A DNA stretch of 64,000 nucleotides, from positions 11,942,937 through 12,006,936 of the forward strand of contig NC_088313.1 in NCBI RefSeq assembly GCF_910592395.1, written 5' to 3'. Under the pieces are notes generated by a model that was not told the DNA's origin, ran no database searches, and was given only the letters and a program-made list of their open reading frames with translations. Positions 1,371 to 35,400 of the stretch are shown piece after piece (within the stretch, counting starts at the first letter, position 1; the number at the start of each line of letters is the position of its first letter). Made by a program: the position numbers and the translations under genes. The DNA comes from Lineus longissimus (Eukaryota; Nemertea; Pilidiophora; Heteronemertea; Lineidae).

Positions 1371-1802
1371 GAGACAAGACCACAATTGATTTTCCAAGCC
1401 ATTTCCAGTTATTTCAAATGCCCGCCATCAAAGAATGCGTCAAGTAGTGAAACTGAAATTCGGATATGATATACGGGTTAGTCTTGCGAGTAACTGGTGC
1501 GATGGAAATTGGTGATTGACCACGGAAATTTTTTTTTAAATTGACAAGTTTGACACAAGTGGACATTTTTACCCATTTCGGCCATTTTCACTCCAAATTT
1601 GAACCACCTCCCCTATGGCCAGGTTGTCAAAATTCAAAATTATTTTTTTTACCAAATAATTTATTTATATCTGTAGACTTGCCACAGCAAATATTTTTTC
1701 AATACCTCTCCAAATATGTACTTGAGAGTAAAACACATGCACTCGTCTAATAGATAGGCCTGGACCCTCCAACCTATGAATATTCATTAGTGGTCTTGTC
1801 TC
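1371..1802 (+). repeat. R repeat, left terminal copy
   Basis: This 432-bp copy starts with GAGACAAGACCAC and ends with GTGGTCTTGTCTC. It is followed by AATGAAG, the same word that follows the R copies at 31428, 32419 and 33411. It lacks the long poly-C tract seen in the array copies (short CCACCTCCCC version). Confidence 0.9.
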
Positions 1803-2529
1803 AATGAAGAGGGATAATCTTGAGATATCAATGAAATATGCCTTTTCCCAAGCATTTGAGATGTCTTGACTAACATAACCAAGTTTCATCAAAAATGAAC
1901 TTGATTTGAGCGAGCTATTAACGTTTTAAAATGTTGTCCGATACGGACAACCTACCTTATATTTCGTCTTCTAATTGTTTACAGACTGTCTTCAATTTAA
2001 GCTCATTAACTCGTAGAATTCTTAATCGATTGGTACCAAATCTTCGACAAATCACCAGTGGTCTACAGTCAATCTGAAATAGGAATTTGAAACAATTTTA
2101 ATTCATGACAAATATTCAAAAATTTCAATTTTTTGGAAAAAAGTTGTCTTTTTAAAGGATGTTCCAAGGTTGTGACAGTGGTATCATGCTGAAAATGTCA
2201 AAATTTAAAATCGAACAATATTGACTTTGTCTGAAATTTAAAAAACAACAAATATATGATGCATTATAAGCATGGAAAGCTTGTTAGTAAGGTGTGAAAT
2301 GAGAAAAAGATTAACCCATATGTTATCACCTTGTCTGTCACATCCAAGTCTGACACTTCCACAACAGCAACCATTGTCATCGCTATTGTCCTATCAACAT
2401 CCACCCTTTTGTAATCTCTTGTCCTTTCTTGTGTATTTTCAGTCTGTTGAAGGAAGCATCCCGAAATAGACATCTCCTAGGAGTACGATTTTAAGCAAAG
2501 AGAGACAAGTTACGAAAAGACAAGACAAG

Positions 2530-5119
2530 ATGAGGACAAAGGCGAGGAGATTGATAGGAAAACGGGGTCCGAGGTGCCCTAGGGCATCGAATGCAGCAAT
2601 GAGAACAATGTTCAAGAGCGGACACGTGCGGAGTGGAGGTGTCGAGGTGGTGAGCGACGACGAACGAGAAGTAGGCCTACAACCCGCATGGAGACGACTC
2701 ACGCCCCAGGAGTACGGACAGGTCACAACGATGGGACACGACGGCAAAAGACACATACCGGATATTAATAACCGTACTGCCAAGAATGTCAACTTACTAC
2801 GGCTGAACATGAAAGAAGACACTGATGATGAGATGGAGATACCAGATGAGACCATGGAGCATGATCACGAGAGTTTCGTTGTTCAGACAACCAAACTGAT
2901 GGATGTGCTCAACGACGTTAACAGGGCCCATAGCGAATATCACGTGAACTGTCAGCCAATATTCAAATATGGAGAGGTACGTAAGCAGGGGGTGTGTTGT
3001 TCAGTCACTGTGGTGTGTAAAAACTGTGGTTTTGATTCGAAATTGTATAAACTTTTTGAGGACATAGACACTGGCAAGCGCGGACGAAAAGCCGCTCTTC
3101 CAAATGTTGCATTACAGATTGCGTTGCAGGACACAATGATTGGCAACGAGAGTATGAGTTACATACTGAGCATGATGGGAATCCCGCCCCCCTGTAGGAG
3201 TATCATGCAAAAGCAGGCAAATAAGGTTGGTGATGAAACAGTTAAAATGAATGTGGCCGATATGGCAGACATACGCGAGAACTTGAAAAGGATACTGCGC
3301 CTAAGAAATCAGGACGACACAGGAATCAATGTCCAAGCTGATGGACGCTATAACAGTTTACACCTCACTTCGAGGAACAAGATGGGCCGTTGTGCGAGCA
3401 CAATGACTGGATTATGTGTTGAAAATGTGACAGATGAACACAAAATCATTGACATTGAGGTTAAAACAAAACTCTGCTGGATAGGGGCTGCAATGCGGGC
3501 GAAAGGTTTTGAAGTTAAATGTGGTGCCACTGGCACAAACGTTGACGAACGACACTCGAAGTGCACGGCTAACTTTCCTGAAGCAGATGCATTCAGAGAA
3601 TATGATCTTGGGGTTGCATTTGCCGAGACTTTTGAGAAACAGGGCCTACATGTAGAACATTTGACTACAGATGGTGATTCCAGTTCATTCAAAGGGTTAA
3701 CTGATGCAACAAAAAAGCTCTTCGGCGGCTTATTCACGGTGAAGCATCAACTTGACTCTATACATTTGCATCAAGCCCAGACGCGTGCAGGACATAGAGC
3801 TGAATTCAGTAAAGGTATGTTCCCGGGACGTACTGCCGAGGAGAGAACACTGTTAAAAACAACGTTTCTGAATGATCTTAGGGTAAGGTCATCCAAGATT
3901 TTGCAATCTCTATTCAAGCGCTGCAACGGTGACCTCGACAGGATCATGGGATACCTGTATGACACTGTTGCCTGTGTTGTGAACTGTTATGGTGGTGACT
4001 GCACTGGTTGTCCACAGAACGAATTCTCACTGTGCTCAGGCACAACTGGTTCTTGATGGCACAAATCAACACGATGGTCATCTTACGGTGAGATTCCCAA
4101 GTTTAAAATGACAGTGATTGACAAGAACTTGGTACATCTCGTTTTGGAGGTATGCCTTAGTAAAGGAGCGTTGCGACAGCTGAGTCTTGGCGTGACAACC
4201 CAGGGGGTTGAGTCCAAGAATCGAGGTCTGTCGGCCAGCGATCCTAAGATTGTGACCAGGAGCAGGAACTAAAACCCTCGTATCCATTCACCATAACATA
4301 GCCGAGAGCGGGCGACGGAAACTAAAGTGGTTCAACATCGAAGTCGATACTTGTTGCCGCCCAATTCTTCTTCTTCTTCTTCGCGTTCGCTCTGCCTCTG
4401 GAGGGGTCATTCTCCTGGGAGTATTTCCCCTCCAAGGCGGGATGAGCGGTAATGCGTGCCACTACGGTTTAGCGCCAATTGGGTTTATTGGCCTAGTGAC
4501 TCCGACTTCGGCTTCGTGGCATAGACACCACAAGTTGAGGAGGGGTAGTCCACCACAAGCTACAGTCCACTTGGATGGGGTCTTTTACTTGCTCTGGAAT
4601 AGACACCAGATACAAGGAACCTCGGTTTTACGTCTCATGCGAAGGACGGAGCAATCGAGGTAAATCAACTTGCTCAGGGTTGAAAGCAGACAGACCGGTG
4701 CGGGAATCGAACCCATGATCTTCGGATTGTGAGTCCGAAGCCCTAACCACTCGGCCATGCTGCCCCCAATGAAAGCGCTGGACAGAATTGCAATGAACAG
4801 GCAGTACACAGTCAGGTACCAACGGAGTGCTAGACACCAGAAGTTAGCTGGTGTATTGAAAAACATCAGGGCAACAGATTACTTCACGAAAAAGAAAAAC
4901 AAAACCAGGGGTGGTGACTACAAGAAACATGTGATGATAACAATGCCGGACTTGCGAAGGAAGGCTGTCAAGAAGGCTGTTGCACGACGAGACAGACCGC
5001 CCGTACCAGAGTGGAAATGTCTCGACCCAAACAGCAGAAACTACGACCACTCCTACTTTCGGCGATCCTTCAAGATCCAACCAGCCACCAAGACATCCAA
5101 GAGGTTGCCATCGCGGTAA
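2530..5119 (+). pseudogene. Mutator-like transposase (metazoan 'Mutator' domain family), frameshifted and split by a SINE
   Basis: The first 508 codons (2530-4053) are open. They carry a Cys-x2-Cys zinc motif (CKNCGF, about residues 163-168) and a transposase core with an ADGRYN box (Asp271) and a TTDGDSSSFKG box (Asp381), followed by an MFPGRT segment and a Cys-rich CYGGDCTGCPQ segment. These correspond to conserved blocks of the metazoan Mutator-like transposase domain (Pfam family recalled as PF20700). After the stop at 4054-4056, recognisable family sequence continues in other frames (VTTQGVESKNRG near 4190, PKIVTRSRN near 4250). A tRNA-derived SINE (4366-4764) then interrupts it. The C-terminal basic part resumes at 4765-5119 (an RYQRSARHQK-like region, then a terminal NYDHSYF block). 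The copy is therefore dead, although its N-terminal two thirds is intact. The start at 2530 is the first in-frame ATG. A GTAAGA donor-like site lies at 5117. Confidence 0.82.
4366..4764 (-). mobile_element. tRNA-derived SINE with (GAA)n tail
   Basis: Read on the minus strand, the element starts with a tRNA-like head: A box TGGCCGAGTGG, anticodon-type stem-loop TCGGA-CTCACAA-TCCGA, and B box GGTTCGATTCC. A ~300-bp body follows, ending in a (GAA)n tail at 4366-4385. The 6-bp word CCCAAT at 4360-4365 and 4765-4770 is the likely target-site duplication. The anticodon position would read CAC (Val), but a long non-tRNA body follows, so this is a retroposon rather than a tRNA gene. It sits inside the Mutator-like transposase and so inserted after that element. 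Confidence 0.8.
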
Positions 5120-5597
5120 GAAAACTTTCAAATGTCAATTCAATATAATGATATTTTCTTTCAACTTCAACATATAGCTTACCAGGAAAAATGCATTTAG
5201 GGCGGTTGCCATGGCCTGCACAGACTTTCTTGGCATTGCACCTTTTTCTACTTTGATTGACCCTTCCTCTTTCTATTGTCAAGTGCTCGACTTTCACGCA
5301 CAGAGGATTATGACAAAGATGACTTATATGATAACCTGCGCCAGTTTTGAATTTCAATTCATCATGGTCACACAAAAACATCGCACGATGTGCCGTCATT
5401 GTGACCGGCTTATCCAAAAAACTTACTTTAACAAACCCGTATGTTACCCCCCTCTTTTTTTGTTTAGCCCCCTCCCAATTCAAACAAAAACCATTACTTT
5501 TAGTCTTTGCTAATATTCTCGCTCGTAATTCAGATACTTTTCTCTTGAATTCACCTGCTGAAATAAAAAAATTAGTGAAAGCTTGGTACCCTGCCAC
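5070..5597 (-). CDS. His-Me finger / HNH endonuclease with zinc-binding loop (homing-endonuclease type)
   Basis: This 175-codon ORF, convergent with the transposase, has the signature of the zinc-binding-loop His-Me endonucleases (Pfam zf-His_Me_endon type). The block HLCHNPLC (His93, Cys95, Cys100) is followed by His105, then Cys120, Cys126, His129 and Cys135 in a CxGHGNRPKC arrangement. These residues would bind structural zinc ions and position the catalytic His for single- or double-strand DNA cleavage. The ORF is uninterrupted. Beyond residue ~138 it runs antisense over the 3' end of the transposase, and a donor-like GGTAAG lies just after the CIFPG codons (near 5190), so the true C-terminus may differ. 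Its position inside the R-bounded unit suggests that the element carries it. Whether it takes part in mobility is inference. Confidence 0.75.
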   Translation of the reverse strand: MAGYQAFTNFFISAGEFKRKVSELRARILAKTKSNGFCLNWEGAKQKKRGVTYGFVKVSFLDKPVTMTAHRAMFLCDHDELKFKTGAGYHISHLCHNPLCVKVEHLTIERGRVNQSRKRCNAKKVCAGHGNRPKCIFPGKLYVEVERKYHYIELTFESFLTAMATSWMSWWLVGS

Positions 5598-5954
5598 CTA
5601 GCGTGCTCTGTGCCCGACACCTCCCAAAATGAAAATAACATGCAAAACAATCAACACTATCATTACTATTCACAATTGATGATTGTTATGAAACATATCT
5701 AGCCCAAAAAAGTAGAAAAATTTGAAATTATTTGAAATTTTTTGAAAATTTCAATTTTTGGCATTTTCACTTAAAAGCCCTGTAGGACAGGGGGGGGGGG
5801 GGGGTTAAATTTGAGAATTTTCTTTTTTTCCACATTTTCCAATTTCCATGATATGTCCACACATTCTCAACACATTTCAGCCAATTCAAACGGTTTTTGT
5901 GGATTTCAGAGCTCATTTACTATTTTTGACCTGTAACCCAAAACCCTCCAAATA
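5598..5954. other. Non-coding 3' part of the Mutator-like internal segment
   Basis: AT-rich sequence without a credible ORF. It contains a 16-bp poly-G run near 5789-5805 and several TTTGAAATT-type words. It ends in AATA directly before the right R copy. It probably holds the promoter and 5' region of the minus-strand endonuclease. Confidence 0.5.
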
Positions 5955-6390
5955 GAGACAAGACCACAATTGATTTTCCAAGCCATTTCCAGTTATTTCA
6001 AATGCCCGCCATCAAAGAATGCGTCAAGTAGTGAAACTGAAATTCGGATATGATATACGGGTTAGTCTTGCGAGTAACTGGTGCGATGGAAATTGGTGAT
6101 TGACCACGGAAATTTTTTTTTAAATTGACAAGTTTGACACAAGTGGACATTTTTACCCATTTCGGCCATTTTCACTCCAAATTTGAACCACCCCCCCCCC
6201 CTACGGCCAGGTTGTCAAAATTCAAAATTATTTTTTTTACCAAACAATTTATTTATATCTGTGGACTTGCCACAGCAAATATTTTTTCAATACCTCTCCA
6301 AATATGTACTTGAGAGTAAAAAACATGCACTCGTCTAATAGATAGGCCTGGACCCTCCAACCTATGAATATTCATTAGTGGTCTTGTCTC
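5955..6390 (+). repeat. R repeat, right terminal copy
   Basis: This 436-bp copy is in the same orientation as the left copy and nearly identical to it, including the stretch CCAAGCCATTTCCAG that distinguishes this pair from the array copies. It ends at GTGGTCTTGTCTC and is followed by the TTCT target duplication. The shared variant sites indicate that the two terminal copies derive from one another. Confidence 0.9.
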
Positions 6391-6521
6391 TTCTGCAGAG
6401 TCCGGATTCAGGTATGTTCTTACTAAAAGTTGTCTTGGCCCAGGCCAGATGGCTAGTACCTAGCATGCCTAGCTAATAATCGAGACCTATTTCGGCAAAT
6501 AGGTGATATGATGGCTATGCC

Positions 6522-7574
6522 TTGTTTGTTCAGTTGTCGACAGCACGTGCCACCACATTCCATCTTTCCAACCCATCACTCATGATCAAACCAGTCACTG
6601 TGACTGAGTTGGTGACCAGATGTTTTTTTGGAGTAAGATGTTTTTTGGGAATCCTTCGTCAGGCCCTACAGTGCCACCCCTCTGTTTCACCAACAAGTCT
6701 AATGGGATCCATTTCAATTTCAGCTCCAGCATTAAAAAGCGACATCATACAACAGATACTGAGTCAGAAAGCAAGACTAAGTGCTCAATCACAGGCAGCT
6801 CCTCCAAGACCAAGACCAGCCCCAGCAGCTGCTGGAGCTCCACCCGCTCATGCAGCTGATGCTCCACACCACCAAATAGACCAAGCAGCAGATACTCCAC
6901 AAGACCCACCAGCATATTATGATCCTGCTGATGATGCTCCACCACTTGAAGCTGAGCCTGTGGCACCCATGCCCGTTGCCCATATTATTTGGTTACCAAA
7001 TGAACAGGCCAAGCTGGTAGAATTACGGTTGGAACAGGAAGACAAGTTTCGTGCTGCCAACAGGCATGACCTGCTGTGGACGAGTATCGCCAAGGAAATT
7101 AACCCAGAAATTAGCGGAACACAGTGTCTGAACAAATGGAAGTACATCAAGTCTAAGTATACGAAGCATTTGGATGGCCAGAATTCCACTGGGAATGCCC
7201 GGTTACCTGCTCCAATGTTTTTTGAACAATTGGACAGGGTTTACGGAACCCGGGCAGTGAACCGTCCAAAAAATCTCATGGACTCTATGCGGCCCAAAGA
7301 GGCTGTAGACATGGTAGATGCAGTTGAGGTTGTTGGGGGTAATGTTGATAATGGGGCTGGGCCTGGGGTAGCTAAAGTTGGTGAACCGCGTCCGAAAAAG
7401 CAGAAACTTTCAGACCGGGTCTCTCCGCAAGACAAGGTTGTGATTCAAATCCAAGAGATGCAGGAAGGTCAGATCCGTGTTGAAAATATGATGGAAAGGC
7501 ATCATGGTGAGAGGTTGACATGTATGAACCGCTTTTCGGATTTGTTCGAAAAGTCAGTCAACCATCACACTTAA
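6522..7574 (+). CDS. Harbinger-associated Myb/SANT-like DNA-binding protein
   Basis: The ORF has a Pro/Ala-rich N-terminal linker (about residues 70-150) followed by a trihelix/Myb-SANT-like domain (about 155-245). The domain has the spaced aromatics W, L and W in the phrases IIWLPNEQAKLVELR, LLWTSIAKEIN and CLNKWKYIKSKY. The C-terminus is basic then coiled-coil-like (QDKVVIQIQEMQEGQ). Such proteins accompany HARBI1 nucleases in PIF/Harbinger elements and are known to help the transposase enter the nucleus and bind the termini. A TTTCAATTTCAG acceptor-like site lies just before the codons for APALKSD (near 6722), so the first ~65 residues may be intronic and the real 5' exon may lie elsewhere. 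The C-terminal half is intact to the stop. Confidence 0.65.
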   Translation: MFVQLSTARATTFHLSNPSLMIKPVTVTELVTRCFFGVRCFLGILRQALQCHPSVSPTSLMGSISISAPALKSDIIQQILSQKARLSAQSQAAPPRPRPAPAAAGAPPAHAADAPHHQIDQAADTPQDPPAYYDPADDAPPLEAEPVAPMPVAHIIWLPNEQAKLVELRLEQEDKFRAANRHDLLWTSIAKEINPEISGTQCLNKWKYIKSKYTKHLDGQNSTGNARLPAPMFFEQLDRVYGTRAVNRPKNLMDSMRPKEAVDMVDAVEVVGGNVDNGAGPGVAKVGEPRPKKQKLSDRVSPQDKVVIQIQEMQEGQIRVENMMERHHGERLTCMNRFSDLFEKSVNHHT

Positions 7575-23214: not shown

Positions 23215-24205
23215 AAACCAACGTTACTCAACTAAAATATATTGTTGGCATAACAAGAGGTTCATGTGACGTCTGCTCAGCTGCGATTCATTGGTGGCAT
23301 AACAAGAGATACTAGGAGCCTCGTGCTCAGCTGGGATTTATTTGTTGACATAACAAGAGGTAGCAGTGGCTGTTACTCCGCGAGATTTATTCATGGCATT
23401 ACAAGAGGCTTAAAAAGTCCACTGCACTGCTGGAATTCATTAGTAAAATGGAGGCGCCAGGGCCCAGTAGAGGCAAGACCACCATGGATTCTTTAAGCCT
23501 TTTAGCAGTTCAATTGTCAATGTTTGACCGCGACGCATCAAATACTGCGTGGGGTTGTGAATCTGAAATTTTGATATGATGTTCCGGACAGTCGGGCAAG
23601 TAAATGGTGAAAAGTAAACTGGTAGTTGACCACGGAAATTTTTTGATAATCGACAAATTAGACAGACATTGATATTTCCACTCTTCAGCCAACTGGCAGA
23701 AAAATCTCAAAACACGCCCCCTATTACCAAATTAGCAAAATTCGAAATTAATTTTTTGATCAAATAATTTCTTTATATCTGTATACTTGCCACAGCAAAT
23801 ATTTTTTCAATACCTCTCCAAATATGTACTTGAGAGTTAAAAACATGCACTCGTCTAATTGATAGGCCTGGACCCTCCAACCTATGAATATTCATTGGTG
23901 GTATTGTCTCAGTACTCAACTGGGATTGATTTGTTGGCGTTAACCAGAGGTGCCAGTGCTTATTACTGAGCTGAAATTCATTGGTGGCATAACTAGAAAC
24001 CCCAGGGCCAACTCCTCAACTGGGATTCATTGGTAGCGTAACAAGAGACGCTAGGGCTTAGTGCTTTACAAGGATTCATTGGTTGGCATAACAAGAGGTG
24101 CCAGTGGCTATTACTCAACGGGGGTTGATTTGTTAACATAACAAAATGTCCCAGGGCCAACTATTCAGTTGGGATATATTGGTAACAAAACAAGAGGCCC
24201 TAGGG
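23215..24205 (+). repeat. Degenerate ~50-60 bp minisatellite, interrupted by a solo R copy
   Basis: The motif ATTCATTGGTGGCATAACAA followed by GAGG and a CCAG/CTAGGGC word repeats about ten times with substantial divergence (tracts 23240-23469 and 23911-24205). The solo R element sits in the middle and splits one repeat unit. Confidence 0.75.
23470..23910 (+). mobile_element. Solo R repeat with 4-bp target duplication
   Basis: A 441-bp copy of the terminal repeat found at 1371 and 5955, with slightly diverged termini (GAGGCAAGACCAC ... GTGGTATTGTCTC). AGTA precedes it (23466-23469) and AGTA follows it (23911-23914). This independent insertion confirms that the R unit alone has functional ends and that the integration step duplicates 4 bp. 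It lies between two minisatellite tracts. Confidence 0.85.
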
Positions 24206-24915
24206 TTTGGATCGGTTTGACGCACTGTCTAATGGTTGTGTCAAATATTTTATGATCGATTATTATGTTCAGACTATCTACCTATCACATACGTGTCCTA
24301 TATCCCTGCTGACTGGAGAGATTTTGAGAAAAAATCACTTTCTTCAAATGTCACCCCCGATTGCCACACCCATCTTCAAACTTGGGATGGGTTTGACGCA
24401 CAGTTTAAAAGTTGTGTCGAAGATTTTATGATGGATTATTATGCTTACACTACCTGCCTGTCACCTCCAATCGTCCTAGACCCCTGCTAATTGGACAGTT
24501 CTCGCGAAAATTTCACGTTTTTTATTGAATGTCACTCCCCATCGACGAGACCAATTTTCCAATTTTGGATGGGTTTGACGCACAGTCTAAAGGTTGTGTC
24601 AAAGATTTTATGATCGATTAGTATGCTCACACTACGTACCTGCCTATCACCTCCAAGTGTCCTAGACCCCTGCTGACTGGACTGTTTTGGAGAAAAATCC
24701 ATATTTTAATGTCATCCCCTTGACCAGACTAATTTTCAAATTTGGGATGAGTTTGACGGACTGTCTAAAAGTTGTGTCGAAGACTTAATGCTTACACTAC
24801 CTGCCTATCACATCCAAGTGTTCTAGACCCCTGCAGATTGGACAGTTTTCGAGAAAAATCAATTTTTTTCATCTCACCCCTTGACCAGACCAATTTTTAA
24901 ATTAGGGATGGAATT
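24205..24915 (+). repeat. ~178-bp satellite-like tandem repeat, about four units
   Basis: Units start near 24210, 24388, 24570 and 24748 at the phrase GGTTTGACGCAC/GGAC. Each contains GTTGTGTC, TTTTATGATSGATTA, CCTGCCTATCAC and GACCCCTGCTGATTGGA. Divergence between units is moderate. It has no coding capacity beyond chance ORFs. Confidence 0.8.
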
Positions 24916-25030
24916 TTTGGCTGGCTTCATCATGATTCGGTATAGAGACTCGGAATGAAACTGTTAAAACTAATTACTTGGCTGCCACTTGGATGAATTA
25001 GTTCACTGACTAAATCGTTTGAAATTAAGG

Positions 25031-25211
25031 AATTGATACCGAACTGGAGGTATTGGTTGTCACACCCAAACCGCAAGGATGGAGCTGAAATGTAAACCAA
25101 AACCGAGGCGTAGCCGAGGTTTTGTCGTAGCCGAGGTTATGTCCAATGTTTTAGCTCCAACGAGCGGTTTGGGTGAGACATTCAATACCGACAGTGTATG
25201 AGGTATCAATT
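25031..25211. repeat. Imperfect palindrome / foldback MITE
   Basis: AATTGATACC at 25031-25040 pairs with GGTATCAATT at 25202-25211. Inner blocks CACCCAAACCGC/GCGGTTTGGGTG-like and GGAGCT/AGCTCC pair as well, so the ~180-bp unit can fold almost end to end. There is no ORF. Confidence 0.7.
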
Positions 25212-29454: not shown

Positions 29455-32400
29455 GTATATGTATATGGGTGATATTTTATATATAGGATAGGTTACAAAA
29501 CAAAATGTACATTTCGTTAGCCTCATAGCATAATTGCCTAAGTCATATTATGGCCAAAATGTGAAAATTTTATGTCTATGTCACTTTTCTGTATAATTCA
29601 AGCATTGTTTACTTATTTAATGGTTTTAAAAATGTTGAGACATCTGTTATAAGTTCTTGTTAAAGTTCGAATAAAAATTTCCTAAGCGTTGTCTAAAAAA
29701 ATGGTTCTTTAATTTTTCTCAAAACCTTCAAAATTAATATGAGTTAGGCAATTATGCTATGAGGCTAACGATTTGTAGTTATGTGTGACAGGACCATGGA
29801 GATTCATTGGCAACGGAAATGTCTCACGAACGAATTTATAAAATCGTAGGTCAAAACATGCCATTTTAGCCAGTAGATAGAGAATTTAGATAACATTACA
29901 CCGAGGTTACCAGATTCAACATCCTGATATTCAGGGTTTTTGTCACTTTTTCGTCATTACAAAACCTCGACGAAAAGCAATTGAATCCTCTGCGGAGAAG
30001 GCTGTTCCGATTACTTTCCGATTATTCGACACACCCGTACCTGTGGTGTATAATTCAAGAGAGATTAATTTAAACAATTTCTTTAAAGCTTTCATACAAA
30101 ATTATATCTATTTTACGCTGCTACACACACCGATTCAAAGTGTTTATTGTGAAATTTATTAAACCTGCCGCAGGGGGGGGGGGGGGCATAACTGGTATCA
30201 CGGTAATTGCCGACTGCAGTGCGGACGCTGGATGACAACCAATAAAAATGCGTGTTTGGATAACGATGACGAAATTTCGAGTCGGATGCTGTCGACGCTC
30301 TGATTTGGCTTTCTTAGTTTTTTTCAACCCGCAACAATCTGTCTGAAGGGTAGATACAATTTTTACCAGGGGTCTGAAATATCGCGAGGCAGAGTATATT
30401 GAAAACCACTGGTTATACCAAAATGGATATTCTATACATGCATGCAGATTCACCGTCTAGCCATGCCATGACGTGGTCGTCAGTTCATATGGCACTTGGC
30501 GAATCGGCCAAATTAGCATAGCCAACGATTTGCACGCATCGTATACATACTACCGTAGTAGTAGTATATCACGGTCAATGGATGGGGTGTTAATAAACAG
30601 AGAAACAGAGAAACGAAGTAATCGAGAACTTCCCATATCGAGTAGTTAGGCTTTAATTTCTGCATTTCTGGAGGTGTATAATAATGTCCAGCACAAGTTA
30701 AGACCGTTTATTTACTGGTTGGATAGGAGAATGAAACCATTCAGTTATTAAGAGAAGTGTCAGTAAAATGGTTCCCATCTGCGTCCCTTCTCAAAGCACC
30801 GATGTACACCTGGCACGGCGAAGTTGCACCCCCACTTCATATCTCATTTCAGCCTTGTTGAGTATTCAGCATAGTCCAGTCTTAATTAGCAAAGTCTGTA
30901 TTTTAGATCTACCCAGTGTAACAGTAGATCGTAGTCCGACGTGAGAAATAAAGCATTTCATCTCCGATATTCTCGACTCTGAGACAAGACCACAATTGAT
31001 TTTTAAGCCTTTTAGCAGTTAAATTGTCAATGTTTGACCGCGACGCATCAAAGAATGCGTCAAGTAGTGAAACTGAAATTCGGATATGATATACGGGTTA
31101 GTCTTGCGAGTAACTGGTGCGATTTAAATTGGTGATTGACCACGGAAATTTTTTTTTTAGATTGACAAGTTTGACACAAGTGGACATTTTTACCCATATC
31201 GGCCATTTTTCACTCCAAATTTGAACCCCCCCCCCCCCCTATGGCCAGGTTGTCGAAATTCAAAATTATTTTTTTTACCAAACAATTTATTTATATCTGT
31301 AGACTTGCCACAGCAAATATTTTTTCAATACCTCTCCAAATATGTACTTGAGAGTAAAAAACATGCACTCGTCTAATTGATAGGCCTCGACCCTCCAACC
31401 TATGAATATTCATTGGTGGTCTTGTCTCAATGAAGGTACATTTCAGGGGTTAACATTTTGAGAATTTTTTCAAACTAATGTACATGACATCCCACAACTC
31501 TCCAACAAAGGAAAGTCATATCTGGACATTTTTGGAGAAATGAGAGACATTTCAAAGAGTGGTACACTGTGCCAAAAGCGACGAAAGAGGACAAAAAGTC
31601 ATGATTTTGCAGCCAACAGCACCAAATTCAAAGACCAGCCCTGGCCAGAATAAGCAAGCTATGGAGCTGAAACTTTAGGATGTGATTTAGGAATATCTTT
31701 GCTGCTTTGGACACAACTTTCAGAATCAAGGCCTAAGTAGTTTCAAAGAAATTACAAAATGAATGGCAACACAACAAGACTTGTAAAAATGAAACCGAAC
31801 TTAGACCGGGGGTAGGTTGACTCATATTTGGGTCAAATCAAGTTTTTTTCTCATTATTTTAGCTTGTTTTGACCTTAAATCACCAGCAATACAATATTCT
31901 AAATGAATTAGAGTGATTTGAGCACATTCAAATTTTTCACTAAATTGACCCAAAATGTAGTGTAAATGGAGACAAGACCACAATTGATTTTTTAAGCCTT
32001 TTAGCAGTTAAATTGTCAATGTTTGACCGCGACGCATCAAAGAATGCGTCAAGTAGTGAAACTGAAATTCGGATATGATATACGGGTTAGTCTTGCGAGT
32101 AACTGGTGCGATTTAAATTGGTGATTGACCACGGAAATTGTTTTCTAAATTGACAAGTTTGACACTAGTGGACATTTTTACCCATATCGGCCATTTTTCA
32201 CTCCAAATTTGAACCCCCCCCCCCCCCCCCTATGGCCAGGTTGTCGAAATTCAAAATTATTTTTTTTACCAAACAATTTATTTATATCTGTAGACTTGCC
32301 ACAGCAAATATTTTTTCAATACCTCTCCAAATATGTACTTGAGAGTAAAACACATGCACTCGTCTAATTGATAGGCCTCGACCCTCCAACCTATGAATAT

Positions 32401-35400
32401 TCATTGGTGGTCTTGTCTCAATGAAGGTACATTTCAGGGGTTAACATTTTGAGAATTTTTTCAAACTAATGTACATGACATCCCACAACTCTCCAACAAA
32501 GGAAAGTCATATCTGGACATTTTTGGAGAAATGAGAGACATTTCAAAGAGTGGTACACTGTGCCAAAAGCGACGAAAGAGGACAAAAAGTCATGATTTTG
32601 CAGCCAACAGCACCAAATTCAAAGACCAGCCCTGGCCAGAATAAGCAAGCTATGGAGCTGAAACTTTAGGATGTGATTTAGGAATATCTTTGCTGCTTTG
32701 GACACAACTTTCAGAATCAAGGCCTAAGTAGTTTCAAAGAAATTACAAAATGAATGGCAACACAACAAGACTTGTAAAAATGAAACCGAACTTAGACCGG
32801 GGGTAGGTTGACTCATATTTGGGTCAAATCAAGTTTTTTTCTCATTATTTTAGCTTGTTTTGACCTTAAATCACCAGCAATACAATATTCTAAATGAATT
32901 AGAGTGATTTGAGCACATTCAAATTTTTCACTAAATTGACCCAAAATGTAGTGTAAATGGAGACAAGACCACAATTGATTTTTTAAGCCTTTTAGCAGTT
33001 AAATTGTCAATGTTTGACCGCGACGCATCAAAGAATGCGTCAAGTAGTGAAACTGAAATTCGGATATGATATACGGGTTAGTCTTGCGAGTAACTGGTGC
33101 GATTTAAATTGGTGATTGACCACGGAAATTGTTTTCTAAATTGACAAGTTTGACACTAGTGGACATTTTTACCCATATCGGCCATTTTTCACTCCAAATT
33201 TGAACCCCCCCCCCCCCCCCCCTATGGCCAGGTTGTCGAAATTCAAAATTATTTTTTTTACCAAACAATTTATTTATATCTGTAGACTTGCCACAGCAAA
33301 TATTTTTTCAATACCTCTCCAAATATGTACTTGAGAGTAAAAAACATGCACTCGTCTAATTGATAGGCCTCGACCCTCCAACCTATGAATATTCATTGGT
33401 GGTCTTGTCTCAATGAAGGTACATTTCAGGGGTTAACATTTTGAGAATTTTTTCAAACTAATGTACATGACATCCCACAACTCTCCAACAAAGGAAAGTC
33501 ATATCTGGACATTTTTGGAGAAATGAGAGACATTTCAAAGAGTGGTACACTGTGCCAAAAGCGACGAAAGAGGACAAAAAGTCATGATTTTGCAGCCAAC
33601 AGCACCAAATTCAAAGACCAGCCCTGGCCAGAATAAGCAAGCTATGGAGCTGAAACTTTAGGATGTGATTTAGGAATATCTTTGCTGCTTTGGACACAAC
33701 TTTCAGAATCAAGGCCTAAGTAGTTTCAAAGAAATTACAAAATGAATGGCAACACAACAAGACTTGTAAAAATGAAACCGAACTTAGACCGGGGGTAGGT
33801 TGACTCATATTTGGGTCAAATCAAGTTTTTTTCTCATTATTTTAGCTTGTTTTGACCTTAAATCACCAGCAATACAATATTCTAAATGAATTAGAGTGAT
33901 TTGAGCACATTCAAATTTTTCACTAAATTGACCCAAAATGTAGTGTAAATGGAGACAAGACCACAATTGATTTTTTAAGCCTTTTAGCAGTTAAATTGTC
34001 AATGTTTGACCGCGACGCATCAAAGAATGCGTCAAGTAGTGAAACTGAAATTCGGATATGATATACGGGTTAGTCTTGCGAGTAACTGGTGCGATTTAAA
34101 TTGGTGATTGACCACGGAATTTTTTTTTTTAATTGACAAGTTTGACACAAGTGGACATTTTTACCCATATCGGCCATTTTCACTCCAAATTTGAACCACC
34201 CCCCTATGGCCAGGTTGTCGAAATTCAAAATTATTTTTTACCAAACAATTTATTTATATCTGTAGACTTGCCACAGCAAATATTTTTTCAATACCTCTCC
34301 AAATATGTACTTGAGAGTAAAAAACATGCACTCGTCTAATTGATAGGCCTCGACCCTCCAACCTATGAATATTCATTAGTGGTCTTGTCTCCTCTGTTGC
34401 CCTGCCAATATGCAGCGCCATCTTGGAAAAGCCGTGACGTCACCGCGGTATCCTCCTTGCTACCCGCCTCACGAAACAAGCCTCGTCCCCAGGACCAAAC
34501 AAGCAGGAGGGACGAGGTTACCAGGTCTAAAATTGCCCAACTAAAGTCTTGGTTGATTGGTTTTTAGTGGTTGTTTTCTTGGTTTTTAATAACCTAATAC
34601 ACAGTCAAAACTGTCCAAGCTAGGTCAGGATTTGCTACATGGCTATACGCCCCTTGATTGTTTTAAATTGATGCTACTTCATTTTGAACAAAACAAAATG
34701 GCTGTTGACACACAAGTACTGATTTTGTGTAGTAATGCATTGGGAGACGAGGCCTAACTAGTCGATGGGGGAAGTTCTCGATTTCTTCGTTTCTCTGTTT
34801 CTCTGTTTATTAATACCCAAATGGATGTACACATGCAGCTGATGGTGGGCTTGTGATGAAAGACGCCCGGACGCCCGATCACGCCCGACGCCCACGCCCG
34901 GCCCTTCTACGCAGGGGTCTGCAGACTACCTTTACCAAAATGAAATGGTAACAGATCAAACCCCAAATGAAATACTTTCACATTCTAAAATCGTAAGGTC
35001 GCTCAAAATATACATCATTTGTTGTCATTGGTAAAGCATGAAGTTTGGGGTTTTTTTTTTTCATGTTTCTAAAAGTTTGTGATATTTCAAAAACATTTAT
35101 TATTGCATCTCAATTTTGGATTTACTTTGTTATGCGGCTTCTTCCTAACCGCTTACCCAGGGGTCATTGCGTGATCCTATGGTCGCTTGCACTGCCCCTG
35201 GTATCATGTTGAGCTAAAACATATTTTATTGGTCAACGAATAATGTTTGACAAGCAAATAAGATGTAAATAATGTTTTGACACTTCGCATGTTCATGGCA
35301 TGTATTGAATCAGCGAAAAGGGCGACTTAGCAGACTACATACAACCAATTACCCTATTATGCGCTCACAAATCAATTGACGGCATTATAGAACTACATGG

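Follow-up and report, generated by a model that had tools for sequence, protein, structure and literature searches.

A probable decayed KolobokP transposon in the genome of Lineus longissimus, with a related solo terminal repeat and non-autonomous multimer

KolobokP elements were described by Kojima & Bao (2022, Mob DNA 13:24, PMC9587614), who placed them in the Kolobok superfamily and listed 228 families from seven animal phyla. The sections of that paper used here describe an internal region (INT) that lies between long terminal direct repeats (LTDRs) of ~450 or 660 bp. The LTDRs carry inverted ends of their own, which are up to 18 bp long (11-18 bp in the oyster families), and their termini are 5'-RR and YY-3'. 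The solo copies analysed there are flanked by duplications of 3-4 or 4-5 bp; KolobokP is reported to show no strong preference for a target. In most families, the direct strand codes for a DDD/E transposase and the complementary strand for an I-PpoI-like nuclease; a CCHC zinc finger is almost invariant, and the C/DxxH signature is common to MuDR and Kolobok. KolobokP is also found as solo LTDRs and as multimers of the type (LTDR-INT)n-LTDR. In oysters, autonomous elements measure 4,022-4,748 bp and non-autonomous ones 1,738-3,261 bp (PMC9587614). Here we describe a stretch of 64,000 nucleotides from the nemertean Lineus longissimus (contig NC_088313.1, positions 11,942,937 to 12,006,936), which we call the window. 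We have little doubt that it contains a decayed autonomous KolobokP transposon with the structure LTDR-INT-LTDR, and that a solo LTDR and a non-autonomous multimer found alongside it belong to its LTDR family.

The autonomous element, referred to below as the main block, is 5,020 bp long. Its ends are formed by two copies of a repeat, R1 at 1371-1802 (432 bp) and R2 at 5955-6390 (436 bp), both on the plus strand. An earlier note on this DNA had reported the two as direct repeats, and its coordinates proved exact. The copies are identical in 426 of 432 aligned bases, and four further gap columns fall within a C-run. Both open with GAGACAAGACCAC and close with GTGGTCTTGTCTC; the two ends of R1 are exact reverse complements of each other (13/13 bases), which bears out the 13-bp inverted ends noted before. 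The internal region occupies 1803-5954 of the plus strand. Comparison of the flanks revealed TTCT both immediately before R1 (1367-1370) and immediately after R2 (6391-6394), while the inner flanks read AATG after R1 and AATA before R2.

A BLAST search of the window with R returned seven copies of 432-452 bp, i.e. five in addition to R1 and R2. A profile search added no further full copy: seven matches lay above the inclusion threshold, and the three below it were all short (24-36 bases). The termini are GA..TC in all seven copies, and both 13-mers are exact in six of them. Six copies border an interior and one is solo; it is the solo copy that has one mismatch in each 13-mer. These copies represent three insertions, namely the main block, the solo R at 23470-23910 (plus strand) and a multimer of the form R-S-R-S-R-S-R at 30981-34391 (plus strand). 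In all three, the outermost edges are marked by a 4-bp duplication (TTCT, AGTA and CTCT, respectively). When the end of the left flank was compared with the start of the right flank over lengths of 1-20 bp, the longest match was 4 bp in each case. Random pairs of positions placed within the window at the same separations share a 4-mer with frequencies of 0.0053 (TTCT), 0.0048 and 0.0043.

The solo R is inserted in repeated host sequence, and this allowed its empty site to be recovered. When its flanks are joined with a single AGTA, they align across the junction to neighbouring repeats, with 209 of 296 columns identical and nine gap columns. No gap occurs within ~20 bases on either side of the join, and the neighbour has AGTG where the target has AGTA. 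The alignment supports an insertion that was clean and duplicated 4 bp. For the main block and the multimer, no other copy of the joined flanks that spans the junction was detected in the window, so that an empty site is available for one of the three insertions. The host repeats around the solo R, at 23220-25200, are short, diverged units, and units with a period of ~161-186 bp are located just downstream of it.

One could argue that the main block is an accident, in which two miniature inverted-repeat transposable elements (MITEs) inserted by chance to the left and to the right of a transposase gene to which they are unrelated. R does have its own inverted ends, and it occurs singly with its own duplication (AGTA/AGTA) in one of the three insertions; hence it is not confined to pairs. 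Furthermore, the two inner R copies of the multimer, A2 and A3, have AATG as both their left and their right flank. Against this explanation, neither R copy of the main block has a duplication of its own (TTCT/AATG and AATA/TTCT), although the outer edges match, and the outer match recurs in a second composite (CTCT/CTCT), which disfavours chance. The same composite structure is moreover shared by the published KolobokP families (PMC9587614). We consider a chance pair of MITEs to be very improbable. The data support insertion of the R-INT-R block as one unit, as the earlier note had proposed from TTCT/TTCT; the CTCT/CTCT of the second composite strengthens this point. The claim in that note that only the outer edges share a duplication needs to be qualified. 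It holds for TTCT/TTCT as compared with AATG/AATA, but AATG and AATA differ by a single base, so the inner edges of the main block are not unrelated. The multimer also speaks against a purely outer pattern: in it, the tetramer is AATG at all six inner edges.

The interior of the main block encodes a transposase. An open reading frame (ORF) on the plus strand, 2530-4056, matches the Pfam family PF20700, "Mutator-like transposase", with an E-value of 7.2e-53 and is ended by a TGA at 4054-4056. Candidate catalytic residues within it, picked by eye, are a first D at codon 3340 and a second D at codon 3670 or 3676; a C/DxxH motif, DSIH, is present at codon 3754. The same frame continues beyond the TGA on the plus strand (4057-4272), where we located by eye a candidate for the last catalytic E at codon 4210 before a further stop. 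A cysteine cluster, CVVNCYGGDCTGC, between the C/DxxH motif and this E is a candidate zinc finger, with ligands assigned by eye. Further downstream on the plus strand, a frame at 4765-5119 is taken as the C-terminus of the transposase because of its position; it has no Pfam match.

The gene is disrupted. In addition to the stop at 4054-4056, there is a further stop at 4270-4272 with a change of frame beyond it, and an insertion resembling a tRNA-derived short interspersed element (SINE) lies at ~4366-4764. This insertion is on the minus strand, its extent was determined by eye (4366-4764), and it is flanked by CCCAAT at 4360-4365 and 4765-4770. It contains the only Rfam tRNA match (4692-4764, minus strand); ARAGORN predicted no tRNA gene in the window. 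With two stops, a frame change and an insertion, an active transposase is not to be expected from the main-block copy. Searches for relatives of the transposase gave two pattern-matching stretches in viral contigs and 29 in genome contigs, none of which was confirmed by tblastn.

On the opposite strand of the interior, an ORF at 5070-5597 (minus strand) matches the Pfam family PF05551, zf-His_Me_endon, with an E-value of 1.6e-13 and is assigned to a His-Me finger endonuclease of the I-PpoI type. The ORF is open, and its first start codon is GTG. By eye, an acceptor-like sequence, TTTTTTTATTTCAG, is present on the endonuclease strand at 5551-5570 (near 5557); this site and the lack of an early ATG suggest that the first exon may be spliced. 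Comparison with I-PpoI chains gave weak matches to four distinct sequences (E 0.018-0.66), in an alignment that includes SHLCHN followed by H...E....N. Cysteine and histidine residues are present at C38, C95, C100, H105, C120, C126, H129 and C135, and those that we take to be zinc ligands among these eight were chosen by eye. The residues S92, H93, H105, E109 and N114 correspond to S97, H98, H110, E114 and N119 in the published description (PMC9587614). A single pattern-matching stretch for the endonuclease was found in viral contigs, unconfirmed by tblastn, and a single-sequence structure model was uninformative (mean predicted local distance difference test score, pLDDT, 31.4). The Pfam scan of the main block covered 13 ORFs, a set in which not every short ORF is included. 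Ten of them showed no Pfam family above the cut-off (one domain of unknown function, with E 0.014, fell below it), and no reverse transcriptase was found among the 13.

Eight of the ten characters by which we compared the locus with KolobokP agree with it, and we rate the main block as a further member of this group, in a comparison with the 228 published families made by description only. Several points weigh against the assignment. The CCHC finger downstream of the first D gave no confident match, even though C, C, H and C are present in this order. Canonical Kolobok elements duplicate TTAA, which the main element does not; KolobokP itself generates duplications of 3-4 or 4-5 bp. Finally, membership would follow from architecture and domains rather than from an alignment to a KolobokP consensus or from a tree.

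The earlier note had suggested instead that the locus may represent an undescribed class of animal DNA transposon. In favour of a class distinct from KolobokP one can cite the uncertainty of one zinc-finger motif and the fact that the transposase was matched to KolobokP by description and not by alignment. The structural features tested nevertheless match KolobokP, including the multimers and the His-Me endonuclease on the opposite strand. The idea of an undescribed class fails since this kind of element, together with its endonuclease on the complementary strand, was published in 2022 (PMC9587614), and a separate class is in our judgment highly unlikely. The label "Mutator-like" used in the note survives as the Pfam name of PF20700, but the same paper files KolobokP under the Kolobok superfamily.

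The multimer deserves a closer description. Its R copies, A1-A4, start at 30981, 31969, 32960 and 33952 and are 98.2-99.8% identical to each other when gap columns are left out. The three S units between them are each 540 bp long, and all three pairwise comparisons yielded 0 differences. No convincing similarity between the main-block interior and that of the array emerged from a BLAST comparison (best E 0.022). The combination of identical S units with slightly divergent LTDRs is consistent with a recent expansion by unequal crossover, but the array may contain an assembly error. We also considered from the alignment columns whether the middle LTDRs are chimeric, with a 5' part like A4 and a 3' part like A1. 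The sites on the right-hand side agree with such an origin. We do not claim it, because on the left side the evidence comes down to the length of a T-run and a small number of changes seen in A1 alone, and the pattern in columns 169-181 is mixed.

Three other observations concern these elements and their surroundings. The solo R and A1 match in 129 of 133 columns at the right end (321-453) but in only 126 of 188 over columns 81-280, a contrast that points to constraint on the right end or to gene conversion there. A further inverted repeat encloses the array (30585-30651 and 34752-34818; 67-bp arms, 93% complementary), and TTAA occurs near the outer end of each arm (30590-30593 and 34810-34813); the array may therefore be nested within a different DNA transposon, one that duplicates TTAA. 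Immediately to the right of the main block, an ORF at 6522-7571 encodes a Myb/SANT-MADF-like DNA-binding domain (PF13837, 5e-8).

All seven R copies contain the 12-bp perfect palindrome ATGAATATTCAT, which is located at 1776-1787 in R1 and at 6364-6375 in R2. The window contains seven occurrences of it, one per R copy and none outside R. About 13% of shuffled R1 sequences hold some palindrome of at least 12 bp, so that the presence of this one is by itself unremarkable. The palindrome lies in the least variable segment of R: 121 of 129 columns are invariant over the seven copies in columns 325-453, as compared with 136 of 220 in columns 81-300. We regard it simply as a candidate cutting site of the endonuclease. 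A second feature of this kind is the tetramer at the edges of the interior, which reads AATG...AATG in the array and AATG...AATA in the main block; in the clam family KolobokP-1_MeMe the interior edges are TATA and TATA (PMC9587614). Such tetramers would be expected after an insertion of an LTDR into the interior of its own element, accompanied by a duplication.

Following Kojima & Bao, the three forms in the window could arise from one set of activities. The substrate of the DDD/E transposase would be the 13-bp LTDR ends, of which it could use any suitable inverted pair. Pairing of the two outermost ends would move the whole block, while pairing of the two ends of a single LTDR would move or excise a solo LTDR. 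Solo LTDRs and (LTDR-INT)n-LTDR arrays would be generated by recombination between LTDRs, which a cut of the His-Me endonuclease in an LTDR may provoke, and the original outer duplication would persist through such events. A more specific version is doubtful, though it can be entertained. It proposes that the LTDR is cleaved by the element's own endonuclease at ATGAATATTCAT, which lies 15 bp in from the right end, with repair of the break expanding the arrays. The matching interior tetramers would come from an LTDR that inserted, together with a 4-bp duplication of its own, into the interior in circular or tandem form; this would explain the origin of the composite shape. The palindrome provides a concrete DNA site at which the proposed self-cleavage can be tested.

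The locus can finally be compared with other known systems. Classical Mutator elements generate duplications of 8-11 bp, the figure given in the earlier note. The main element resembles a Mutator or Mutator-like element (MULE) in the name of its Pfam domain and in the C/DxxH signature, but its perfect inverted ends measure just 13 bp and its duplication 4 bp. A long terminal repeat (LTR) retrotransposon, or a terminal-repeat retrotransposon in miniature (TRIM), likewise has long direct terminal repeats, solo copies and tandem arrays that share repeats, but this origin deserves almost no credence in view of the GA..TC rather than TG..CA ends in 7/7 copies, the 13-bp inverted ends, and the 13 ORFs of the block scanned against Pfam, which yielded a transposase and an endonuclease but no reverse transcriptase. 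The previous judgment that the element fits neither of these two types is thus upheld. Bacterial composite transposons also have repeats with their own inverted ends that flank a moving block and can move alone (PMC9587614); the main element differs in that its transposase is encoded in the interior and not in the repeats. With respect to KolobokP, the differences concern size. The main block exceeds the range of autonomous oyster elements, although it falls inside this range when the ~400-bp SINE-like insertion is subtracted, and the non-autonomous unit R-S-R, with ~1.4 kb, is shorter than its non-autonomous counterparts in oysters (1,738-3,261 bp). The similarities include the LTDR-INT-LTDR structure, LTDRs of ~450 bp with short inverted ends, RR..YY termini and short duplications at the outermost edges. 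They extend to the coding content, with the transposase on the direct strand and the His-Me nuclease on the opposite one, and to a zinc finger, assigned by eye, in the interval from C/DxxH to the last E. The window adds no new class of transposon, and its modest additions to the published picture are the 12-bp palindrome and the inner-edge tetramers. What it offers is the presence, in a single stretch of DNA, of the three published forms of KolobokP, i.e. a monomer, a solo LTDR and a multimer, each flanked by duplications, together with an empty site that is free of gaps at the junction.

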